From contig NZ_FNSN01000003.1 of the NCBI RefSeq assembly GCF_900105345.1, positions 2,790,001-2,854,000 on the forward strand: a stretch of 64,000 bases of DNA, given 5' to 3'. The stretch comes from Arthrobacter woluwensis. Its GTDB lineage: Bacteria; Actinomycetota; Actinomycetes; Actinomycetales; Micrococcaceae. A program made the translations under genes and the position numbers. Under the pieces are notes generated by a model, which worked only from the letters and a program-made list of their open reading frames with translations, was not told the origin of the DNA and searched no databases. Positions within the stretch are counted from its first letter, which is position 1. The number at the start of each line of letters is the position of its first letter. This document shows positions 28,589 through 31,900 of the stretch, one piece after another.

Positions 28589-29413
28589 TCAGCCCAGCCC
28601 GATCGCCTTGCCGAACAGGTCGTAACCCACGAAAGCCCCCACATCGAGCAAGGCGTGTGCCACCACGAGCGGCATCACGCGCCGCCACTTCAGGTACACC
28701 CAGCCGAACACGAGCCCCATCACGACATTGCCGAGGAACGGCCCGAATCCCTGATACAGGTGATAGCTGCCCCGCAGCAGGGCGCTCGCCAGCACGATCC
28801 ACAGCGGAGAGAAGCGCAGCTGGCCGAGCCGCCGGAACAGGTAGCCGACCACCAGGGTCTCCTCCAGGACGCCGTGCCGGATGCCGGACAGCACCAGGAC
28901 CGGCACCGTCCACCAGTGGGCGTCCAGCGCGGCCGGGATGATCGCCGTGGTGACGCCGAGCGCCCTGCCTGCCGCGTACAGTGCCAGCGTCCCCGCTCCG
29001 AGACCGACCGCGAGCGCCAGGCCCGTCCCGGCGTCGCGCACCGGCCGTGCCAGGTCGAAGCCCATCCCCCGCCAGGGCTTCCGCCCCGCCTCGCCGCGCC
29101 AGGGCAGGAAGGTGGCGAGGAGATAAAAGGCGAGCAGCACCGGCACCAGCGAGAACACGATGTCCAGCAGCTGGTAGAGCAGATCGAAGAACTCCCGCTG
29201 ATTGCGGGACGGGTTCAGGGTGGACGTCGCGGAGGAGAGCGGACCGCGGCTGAGCTTGTCGGCGAGCTGCACCACTGAGTACACCGCCGACTGCCCCAGC
29301 GACAGCCCCAGCACGAGCGCGATCTCCCACCAGAGGCGCCGCCGTCGTCCCACGTCCGCGAGAGGCTCCCAGTCCAGGGACGACGACGGCGGGGACGGCT
29401 TCACGCGTGGCAT
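28589..29413 (-). CDS. CPBP family intramembrane metalloprotease
   Basis: 274 residues from ATG 29413. About seven or eight TM helices. The Abi/CPBP motifs are visible: E-E-T-L-V-V-G-Y-L-F-R-R-L (motif 1 with the Glu pair), L-R-G-S-Y-H-L-Y (motif 2 His), G-N-V-V-M-G-L-V-F-G and H-A-L-L-D (motif 4 His). Members act as prenyl-protein-type proteases or in bacteriocin self-protection; the target here is unknown. The ORF extends 54 bp upstream, but the near-start GGTGAC favours 29413. Confidence 0.85.
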   Translation of the reverse strand: MPRVKPSPPSSSLDWEPLADVGRRRRLWWEIALVLGLSLGQSAVYSVVQLADKLSRGPLSSATSTLNPSRNQREFFDLLYQLLDIVFSLVPVLLAFYLLATFLPWRGEAGRKPWRGMGFDLARPVRDAGTGLALAVGLGAGTLALYAAGRALGVTTAIIPAALDAHWWTVPVLVLSGIRHGVLEETLVVGYLFRRLGQLRFSPLWIVLASALLRGSYHLYQGFGPFLGNVVMGLVFGWVYLKWRRVMPLVVAHALLDVGAFVGYDLFGKAIGLG

Positions 29414-29674
29414 GTCACCACTGTAGTGACGCGCCGCGGACACGCGCACACTCCGCCGATCCCGCATGGACAGTCAGAAAACTAGGTCCACCTTCAAGGG
29501 AAGTTCGCGATATGACAGTCACGTAATCCACCGCAAGAGATACAACCAAACCAAGCGGCGCCCCGGGGCCCGAGCGCCATCAAATTCGGTCTAAGCTCAT
29601 ACGCCAGTTTAGGAAGTCCAGGCTCAAACCGTTCGAAAAAAGGTGCGCGAACACGAATCCAAACAACACAGATC

Positions 29675-29683
29675 TGGTATAGT
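29675..29683 (+). promoter_or_regulatory. Extended -10 promoter of the HEPN-like gene
   Basis: TGG-TATAGT: a -10 hexamer TATAGT preceded by TGn, 39 bp before the GTG start. No good -35 lies 17 bp upstream, as expected for an extended -10 promoter. Confidence 0.5.
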
Positions 29684-29722
29684 CCAGAAACAGGCCAGCA
29701 ATAGCACAACACTGGGGGAACC

Positions 29723-31141
29723 GTGTCCAAAAAAATCGAAACTTCCGAAATGCCCGAGCTAGACCCTCTTGCCATGAAACTAATCTATCTACTGGATCGG
29801 TTTCAGTCGAACCAAGAAGATCTATTGTACACTTCCGAATTCATCCTCGAGCGCGAGGCTGATATCAATGACCGCAAAGCGCGCGCAAAAAGCGACATCA
29901 AGAACAACTTTCCGCACGTGGATCCCTCATTAGTCGACGAAGGCTGGGATTTAGTTCTGTCAAAGCTATCGCCCAGCTCGAGCTCGAGTGCCGATAACGA
30001 CCAGGGAGAAAATGCGCCGAGAGACCAAATTGACGATGATCTCGCGGACTTCTTGAGTCGAATTCCGAAAGACTGCAGAGGCGGCTACACCCGTGCGCTC
30101 TTCAAAGGAATCCTCGACAGCAAAATCAAAAAGAGTTCGAGTCGCCTCTGGGCATCAATTCTAACGAGCATCGTCGCGGACTTCGAGGTTCTCATCGGGA
30201 ACCTCATGCGCGAGATCATTTCAAAGCATCCTATTATAATCAGCAATTCGGGCACGACTTATAGCTGGAAAGAAGTTGCCCAGTTCGAAACACTTGAGGA
30301 TTTCAAAGACCATCAGATAAACCAGTATGTGGACAAGCTTCTGTTCGGAAGCTACTCTGATTGGCTAGATTTCCTCGATTCAAAGGTACACATCGATGTT
30401 CCCAAATTAGCTCGCAGCTCAGCGGTCATTGAGATATTTCAGCGACGCCATATGATCGTTCACAATGCTGGCATCGCATCTAAACAGTATGTGAGCTCCA
30501 TTGGCGCCGATTCCGCCGACGAAGTTCTGGGTCGAGAACTAATCGTCGACCCAGCATATCTAATCGCCGCTTCAAATCGAGTTATCGCAGTTGGGACCTG
30601 TCTCGCTCTAAACCTGGGGACAAAGTTTGTTCGGGACGATCGGTCCCGACGATACTTAGAATCATTCGTAGTATCAGAGGTGTCATACCGGCTCCTCCAC
30701 GCTGGCCGCTTCGACGCTGTCACCGATCTCTGCAACATTGTGGATCGGTCTGCGTTTGTGAGCAGTGATTCTGCTCTAAGGTTTGCTGTGAACGGGTGGA
30801 TTGCGGCGAAGTACGGCGGCAGCTCGGATTCCTATATTAAAGATGTCAGGAGCTGGGACACTTCTGCACTAAATCCGGTATTCCAGCTGGCTAAACTAAC
30901 ACTACTTGACGAATTGGATGAAGCTCTGAAGATGTCTTCCGTTCTCCGGAAATCTGGGGTCATCAAATTGCATCACTGGCTCACCTGGCCGCTTTTCAAG
31001 GAGCTTCGCGAGTATGAACGAACCCGCGCGGAGTCGGATGCTCCATCCTTGGATCAAGGTACCGTGGCGCAGTTGCCGCTGGCTGAAGAGTCAATGGCGA
31101 GCAGTGGCGGCCAGATGCCATCACCGCATCGTGAATCCTGA
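29723..31141 (+). CDS. HEPN-like protein, candidate RNase/defence gene, unknown family
   Basis: 472 residues from GTG 29723 with GGGGGA 4 bp upstream. The N-terminal 85 residues are charged and helical, followed by a Ser/acidic linker (81-100). A mostly helical domain of about 105-300 ends in Q-R-R242-H243-M-I-V-H247-N-A-G, which fits the HEPN ribonuclease motif R-(N/D/H)-x3-H. The C-terminal 300-430 looks like helical repeats, then a disordered tail. HEPN proteins are usual in toxin-antitoxin, abortive-infection and other antiviral systems, but no nucleotidyltransferase partner or second gene is present. The AT-rich codon use marks recent acquisition. I do not recognise the full-length family. 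Confidence 0.6.
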   Translation: MSKKIETSEMPELDPLAMKLIYLLDRFQSNQEDLLYTSEFILEREADINDRKARAKSDIKNNFPHVDPSLVDEGWDLVLSKLSPSSSSSADNDQGENAPRDQIDDDLADFLSRIPKDCRGGYTRALFKGILDSKIKKSSSRLWASILTSIVADFEVLIGNLMREIISKHPIIISNSGTTYSWKEVAQFETLEDFKDHQINQYVDKLLFGSYSDWLDFLDSKVHIDVPKLARSSAVIEIFQRRHMIVHNAGIASKQYVSSIGADSADEVLGRELIVDPAYLIAASNRVIAVGTCLALNLGTKFVRDDRSRRYLESFVVSEVSYRLLHAGRFDAVTDLCNIVDRSAFVSSDSALRFAVNGWIAAKYGGSSDSYIKDVRSWDTSALNPVFQLAKLTLLDELDEALKMSSVLRKSGVIKLHHWLTWPLFKELREYERTRAESDAPSLDQGTVAQLPLAEESMASSGGQMPSPHRES

Positions 31142-31219
31142 GAGTTTCCACAGTGGGCGCGTGAATATCCGTCAAACAACGAAGCGCCTAGAATGCCCCC
31201 GCTCGATTAAGCTGGGCCT

Positions 31220-31900
31220 ATGAGTGCGCCGCAGCAAATCATCATGATCCGGCACGGGCAGTCGGCGGCCAATGTGGACACCGGGATCTACAACCGGGTC
31301 CCGGACTACCGGATCCCGCTCACCGAGCTCGGAGTGGAGCAGGCCCGGCAGGCGGGCGAGAAGATCCGCCGGCAGCTGGACGGACAGCAGGTCTGCGTCT
31401 ACGTCTCGCCGTACCTCCGGGCCTATCAGACCCTGGACGCCCTGGGACTAGGCGATCTGACCGAGCGCGTCATCGAGGAACCGCGTCTCCGGGAGCAGGA
31501 CTGGGCCAACTTCCAGATCGCCGGGGACATCGCGGACCAGAAGGAGCTCCGCAACGCCTACGGCCACTTCTTCTACCGGTTCCGGGAAGGCGAGTCGGGG
31601 TCGGACGTCTACGACCGCATCTCCAGCTTCATGGAGACCCTGTACCGCCACTGGTCCAAGCCGAGCTACGCCCCCAACACGCTCCTGGTCACGCACGGCC
31701 TCACCATGCGCCTGTTCTGCATGCGCTGGTTCCACTGGTCCGTGGAGTATTTCGAATCGCTCAACAACCCGGGGAACGCGGAGATCCGCACCCTCATCCG
31801 GGAAGAACACGGCAAGTACCGGCTGGACGCGCCGTTCAGCCAGTGGACGCAGTGCCGCGAGACGGCGACCGTCCTGGACGCGCCGCCGCTGCACTTCTGA
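31220..31900 (+). CDS. Histidine phosphatase family protein (phosphoglycerate-mutase-like)
   Basis: 226 residues. I-R11-H12-G-Q-S-A-A-N is the catalytic RHG motif and T-H-G-L-T-M-R-L near 155 the second His. Y-V-S-P-Y-L-R-A-Y-Q-T (about 53-63) and E-P-R-L-R-E-Q-D-W are phosphatase-branch signatures. It is probably a small-molecule or sugar phosphatase rather than glycolytic mutase. The first normal GC-rich gene after the AT-rich island. Confidence 0.9.
   Translation: MSAPQQIIMIRHGQSAANVDTGIYNRVPDYRIPLTELGVEQARQAGEKIRRQLDGQQVCVYVSPYLRAYQTLDALGLGDLTERVIEEPRLREQDWANFQIAGDIADQKELRNAYGHFFYRFREGESGSDVYDRISSFMETLYRHWSKPSYAPNTLLVTHGLTMRLFCMRWFHWSVEYFESLNNPGNAEIRTLIREEHGKYRLDAPFSQWTQCRETATVLDAPPLHF

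Follow-up and report, generated by a model that had tools for sequence, protein, structure and literature searches.

HEPN effectors, prophage-encoded HEPN defence proteins and fusions of HEPN to TPR domains are all known already. Tha consists of one HEPN protein (301 aa) that is encoded by a prophage; this RNase is non-specific, is triggered by minor tail proteins and, during induction, is kept in check by Ith, an inhibitor encoded antisense to it (PMC11087260). In the LA2681 family (PF18733) a catalytic HEPN is joined to TPR; some HEPN clades are linked to restriction-modification (R-M) systems, and some HEPN families are non-catalytic (PMC3710099). PrrC is an R-M-linked HEPN anticodon nuclease, and the HEPN-MNT modules are small two-gene toxin-antitoxin systems.

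Here, we examined a 472 aa protein encoded in a 64 kb stretch of Arthrobacter woluwensis DNA (the window, 64,000 bp, from genome G000 of 3.86 Mb), together with its relatives in other bacteria. We conclude, with a probability of roughly two in three, that it is a HEPN-type ribonuclease working as a single protein, that its gene was acquired from a mobile element and that it most likely acts as an abortive-infection effector.

The window protein resembles Tha-1 and Tha-2, from Staphylococcus prophages, in being a single protein with one HEPN domain that includes R-N/H-x3-H, and in being made up of putative sensor and RNase parts. Tha-1 adjoins the integrase/excisionase end of its own phage, as do some members of the family described here. 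However, Tha is shorter (301 aa against 472 aa) and its HEPN domain is C-terminal, whereas that of the window protein is central and is followed by a TPR-like domain, and Tha has the antisense inhibitor Ith while no conserved antisense ORF was found for the window gene. The window protein and Tha-1 share no sequence similarity (BLASTP E 2.2; hhalign probability 0.1). On this reading, the window protein would work like Tha, yet is no Tha.

Other known families are similar in part. The HEPN-MNT toxins 7ae8 and 7ae9 and YutE (1ylm) have a four-helix HEPN core like that predicted here (Z of 6.1, 6.0 and 5.7, respectively, to the domain model), but the family has extra N- and C-terminal domains and no recognised MNT partner. 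LA2681 (PF18733) also combines a catalytic HEPN with TPR-type repeats. The PF18733 profile did not match any of 14 members tested at E ≤ 1, and no LA2681 protein turned up in the phylum that was sampled or among the controls. In common with PrrC, cyanobacterial members lie in or adjoin R-M operons, but no ABC ATPase domain was recognised in the family and most members are without R-M neighbours. Among the HEPN families of Pfam, RiboL-PSP-HEPN (PF18735) alone was matched by a member at E < 0.001: to it, residues 115-247 of the relative at locus L030 align with an E-value of 2e-4 and a score of 21.7 bits, below the gathering cut-off of 28.4; L030 was the best member, and the window protein gave no match to PF18735. 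No match to ApeA (PF18739) was found with the Pfam and PADLOC profiles.

Searches with the window protein of Pfam, PADLOC-DB 2.0 (E ≤ 10), NCBIfam and PHROGs returned no match, and among the family members tested none matched a curated family model above threshold. Judged against Pfam, NCBIfam, PHROGs and PADLOC-DB 2023, the order of domains in the family, the Trp-Pro that is invariant in the C-terminal part and the occurrence of members on mobile elements in several phyla seem to be undescribed. As these libraries do not see the family, surveys of defence genes that depend on them overlook it.

A horizontally inserted solo gene

The features of the insertion and its flanks are as follows.
28589..29467, minus strand: left flank, CPBP-like membrane protease gene, kept in 13 of 13 genomes searched
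29466..31207, no strand: inserted segment of 1.74 kb, standing for 26 bp of the congeners' empty site, placed by homology breaks and GC content
29466..29722, plus strand: imported upstream region, from the sequence
29723..31141, plus strand: HEPN-family protein gene, 472 aa with a GTG start, from the ORF list and homologues over most of its length
31220..31900, plus strand: right flank, histidine-phosphatase (PGM-like) gene, 93-100% identical in three congeners

The first-pass annotation had described an abrupt, AT-rich island of recent acquisition, and this was borne out. The GC content of 29466-31207 is 0.509, while the other 1742 bp segments of the 64 kb have a mean of 0.695 (sd 0.018, minimum 0.66), and the alien composition extends to third codon positions, with a GC3 of 0.56 for the 472 aa gene and of 0.93 and 0.90 for its two neighbours. 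The boundaries of the insertion are exact: the alignment of the window to congeners G001 and G002 ends at 29465 and restarts at 31208, and these relatives have 26 bp there. Thus, a 1.74 kb segment was cleanly inserted between two conserved neighbours. The proteins encoded either side of it are 98-100% identical between the window and both G001 and G002, and in the three available congeners, all of which lack the 472 aa gene, the right-flank gene directly adjoins the left-flank gene, the two being separated by 40 bp in G001, 40 bp in G002 and 20 bp in G003. Rather than being conserved and syntenic, the gene is therefore a variable insertion. We take the left-flank gene to encode a CPBP protein and the right-flank gene a PGM protein, on the basis of their sequences and general knowledge. 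The ATG listed for the left-flank gene (29467) uses inserted bases, so the true start of this gene is probably internal.

No direct or inverted repeats of 9 bp or more and no att-like sites were found at the ends of the segment, nor was there a tRNA adjoining it. The earlier question of whether the island lies next to defence genes has a positive answer for several homologues (see below), but not for the window copy, which has no other mobile or defence genes beside it and was inserted alone, with housekeeping genes on both sides. We also considered whether the window copy is a piece of a larger prophage remnant, and rejected this because the insertion measures just 1.74 kb and is bounded by conserved genes of the chromosome.

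The segment contains one credible gene, the 472-codon gene at 29723-31141 that had been called previously, for which the numbering of residues R242 to H247 was also correct. Directly 5' of its GTG start is ggggga. Approximately 40 bp 5' of the gene, TATAGT (29678-29683) lies within an imperfect palindrome, TCTGGTATAGTCCAGA (29673-29688), that a terminator scan reported as the 5 bp inverted repeat TCTGG-N6-CCAGA. From its sequence, TATAGT in an inverted repeat is a candidate promoter/operator, and the gene may possibly be autoregulated. The upstream region (29466-29722) has no similarity to the upstream regions of homologues and yielded no conserved upstream RNA, and no Rfam match was found around the gene or in this region.

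The lack of a partner gene that had been remarked on also stood. None was found for the 472 aa gene, and no recurrent antitoxin-like gene adjoins the family gene across the loci read. While antisense ORFs of 92-93 aa are present on the 472 aa gene, they are not conserved at L018, the locus of the closest relative, or at other loci, and no conserved antisense inhibitor was found; an inhibitor may be encoded at an unlinked locus.

HEPN motif and predicted fold

The domains of the protein and its predicted active site are placed as follows.
30056..30643, plus strand: HEPN domain, residues 112-307, from an AlphaFold2 (AF2) model of the domain alone (pLDDT 88.7) and structural neighbours
30431..30463, plus strand: predicted active site, E237-x3-R241-R242-H243-x3-H247, from the homologue alignment
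30638..31042, plus strand: C-terminal TPR-like helical domain, residues 306-440, from AF2 helices and structural matches

HEPN domains are defined by Rx4-6H with a polar residue (N, D or H) after the arginine, and typically have an extra acidic residue in Ex3[KR] (PMC3710099). Dimers that share a cleft, and RNase activity that needs no metal, also belong to the description of the superfamily. The window protein reads E237-IFQ-R241-R242-H243-MIV-H247, and so has both the Rx4-6H with a polar residue next to the arginine and the Ex3[KR]. In an alignment of 33 homologues, R242 (33/33) and H247 (33/33) are invariant, E237 (32/33) and R241 (30/33) are nearly so and residue 243 is N in 23 and H in 10, with motif conservation inflated in several rows that were fetched with motif-based patterns. 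R242 and H247 are also kept in the rows that came from the whole-protein or profile search (L002-L010 and L085-L088). A bare R[NDH]x3H would be weak evidence, as it was found in 8% of shuffles of the window protein; the longer Ex3[KR]R[NDH]x3H was found in 0.055%. Profile-profile comparison of the domain with the RiboL-PSP and ApeA HEPN sets gave no significant match, but this comparison lacked power, since these two known HEPN families also failed to match each other.

The full AF2 model (mean pLDDT 83.9) is all-helical and has three parts. The N-terminal 110 residues are helical and variable, with 33% K/R/D/E. The central domain carries an insert and is longer than a typical HEPN domain (about 100-120 aa); it is all-helical, with a four-helix core of residues 139-168, 191-222, 233-247 and 277-302, in which R242 and H247 are on one helix. 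When the domain was compared with known structures using VIA-align, HEPN proteins were ranked 2, 3, 4, 6 and 7, making up five of the top seven. These neighbours (7ae8, 7ae9, 1ylm, 8xdj and 8yuf) aligned over 104-116 residues with an rmsd of 4.2-5.0 and Z of 5.1-6.2, though a Z of 5-6 falls in a range that the tool deems unremarkable for helical bundles. One of them, 1ylm (YutE), has been given as a HEPN structure (PMC3710099). Foldseek alone returned no PDB match at E ≤ 0.001. With Z values that are modest for helical bundles and a Foldseek search that was not significant, the fold match of the model supports the HEPN assignment but falls short of proof. The HEPN assignment of the first-pass annotation is thus supported by the motif kept in homologues and the helical domain model.

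The C-terminal region, previously described as helical-repeat-like, is helical in the AF2 model and TPR-like in VIA comparisons. Matches to the whole model were mostly TPR-like proteins, and residues of the C-terminal domain aligned with NprR (4gpk; residues 309-442, Z 6.7) and MalT domain III (1hz4; residues 309-440, Z 6.5), both with modest Z. Among the rows with a letter at the position, N357 is conserved in 31/31, W422 in 31/32 and P423 in 32/32.

Distribution and surroundings of relatives

The family is real but sparse. In whole-protein or profile searches, relatives were found in 4/395 other genomes sampled from the order, 2/394 from the class and 4/395 from the phylum, a prevalence of approximately 1%. 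Among the named genomes with relatives are Geodermatophilus, Sinomonas, Kribbella, Oerskovia, Pseudonocardia, Demequina, Azonexus, a Comamonadaceae, Ureibacillus, Arenimonas and a Chloroflexota MAG. Pseudomonadota, Bacillota, Cyanobacteria and Chloroflexota thus also have relatives, which were found as well on three cyanobacterial plasmids and in IMG/VR viral contigs. The closest relative of the window protein, L018, is only 44% identical to it. In a tree, the two group together, and phage, plasmid and chromosomal copies are intermingled, with long branches that leave the deeper joins unsure. A scan of genome contigs with a single protein returned no match, and with a five-sequence alignment it returned 12 loci. 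Searches of phage GenBank records with the window protein, L018, L020 and L023 found no relatives, E. coli genomes contained no match to the L093 gene and PDB sequence searches gave nothing meaningful.

Prophages, AICEs and defence loci are where family members are concentrated. L018 comes after a serine recombinase, L020 and the stop of a tyrosine integrase overlap, and L021 sits in a P2-like phage with the portal gene on one side and gpA on the other. There is an integrase 4 kb from L014. Pfam bore out the recombinase, the integrases, the portal gene and gpA. The Oerskovia copy (L003/L019/L027) is in a prophage, and L016 and L028 are in AICEs with RepSA. Other neighbours were labelled by reading their sequences: L030 is within a prophage that appears Mu-like, L022 and L096 are upstream of terminase-like genes, L023 (which is near an integrase end) and L098 come after lysin- or tail-type genes, and L093 and L094 adjoin a repressor-like gene. 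In the ten genomes from the whole-protein or profile search, an integrase or resolvase was found within 10 kb of the family gene in four, against 0.74 expected (P 0.003, or 0.011 with one fragmented genome removed).

Defence genes near relatives include GmrSD at L029, TIR at L024, type I R-M at L010 and NERD-UvrD and AbiEi/AbiEii at L032. At the Demequina-type locus L015 (L015:9749-14930), a CBASS cyclase and E1-E2 are approximately 1.4 kb away on the opposite strand. In Crinalium, the family gene comes after a type I R-M operon. At L008 and L009, the neighbours are an IIG-like methyltransferase and a DrmD-like helicase; in the Nostoc plasmids, the gene is in a tight operon, with the IIG-like methyltransferase and a 183 aa protein on one side and a SNF2-type helicase on the other. 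With its four genes, this operon resembles an R-M/DISARM-like system, as yet unnamed, that includes a HEPN component. The gene for the 183 aa protein (L009:5810-6358; L008:9241-9792), which has weak coiled-coil-type matches, lies between those for the methyltransferase and the HEPN protein.

Predicted function and divergent relatives

The proposal that the gene is a single-protein defence system gains support from the context of the homologues: as prophages, defence islands and integrative elements are the usual setting of the family, the gene is probably a one-gene anti-phage system. Catalysis and anti-phage activity, which formed part of the same proposal, are still inferred, and RNase activity, dimerisation, a trigger and phage protection are all predictions. 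In the predicted mechanism, the protein would form a dimer in which the R242/H247 motifs of the two chains make one RNA-cutting cleft that stays inactive as long as the cell is not infected. An infection cue, such as a phage product, would be sensed by the N-terminal and TPR-like domains; for the R-M-linked members, this cue may be loss of the restriction enzyme. The activated protein would then cut RNA, halt growth and block the invading phage, making it an abortive-infection 'moron'. A tentative and somewhat doubtful extension is that family members are an undescribed class of one-protein phage sensors. A conserved phage protein would be recognised either by the N-terminal region or by the TPR-like domain, in which the Trp-Pro is invariant, and recognition would switch on the central HEPN RNase, a Tha-like strategy that would have evolved separately and be common to prophages of at least three phyla. 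If the abortive-infection reading is true, the family is a further HEPN effector, compact and self-contained, which probably has its sensor built in and is carried by prophages, AICEs and plasmids in distantly related phyla, and it provides a second case, besides Tha, for asking how a prophage stops a suicidal RNase from hitting itself.

The R-M-linked genes of the Nostoc plasmids and Crinalium, along with the documented R-M linkage of HEPN clades (PMC3710099), suggest that some of the cyanobacterial relatives may serve as PrrC-like back-ups, in which a HEPN RNase is silenced by the R-M complex and freed when a phage blocks restriction. However, most homologues, including the window copy and L018, are without R-M genes nearby, and such a role is improbable for the window protein. 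A selfish or stress toxin, with an antidote that is one of its own domains, an RNA or an unlinked gene, might stabilise mobile elements or trigger dormancy instead of acting against phages. Carriage on mobile elements would suit a toxin of this kind, as would the fact that the solved structures nearest to the domain include HEPN toxins paired with MNT antitoxins, but with no recurrent antitoxin-like neighbour at the loci read, no conserved antisense ORF and no Rfam match around the gene we consider this unlikely.

The remaining alternatives concern the HEPN domain itself. Non-catalytic HEPN families exist (PMC3710099) and several members are near repressors or integrases, as might be seen if the protein were a catalytically dead or RNA-binding HEPN regulator of phages or mobile elements. 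A dead enzyme would not be expected to keep its catalytic residues unchanged in members from several phyla, and we regard this alternative as very improbable. An unrelated all-helical TPR-like protein with an R-x4-H that arose by chance would accord with the failure of Foldseek alone to find a HEPN match and with the mostly TPR-like VIA matches of the whole model. It is scarcely credible, though, given an invariant motif with the correct flanking residues, the HEPN proteins that fill five of the top seven places in the VIA matches of the domain and the sub-threshold RiboL-PSP-HEPN match of L030.

Several relatives depart from the domain arrangement of the window protein. L087 and L088 (283 and 257 aa) have kept the HEPN part and motif, and the C-terminal TPR-like domain is missing. 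In the closely related phage contigs L093 and L094, the family gene is present as two overlapping ORFs of 172 aa and 250 aa (L093:9911-11178; L094:4663-5930), which could reflect a frameshift common to both contigs or a sensor/effector pair that has been split. A 319 aa Nitrospirae protein (L035:2293-3252) has QRRHLIVHNRGIVDRKYL and little else in common with the family, and possibly represents a separate HEPN family that has no Pfam match.
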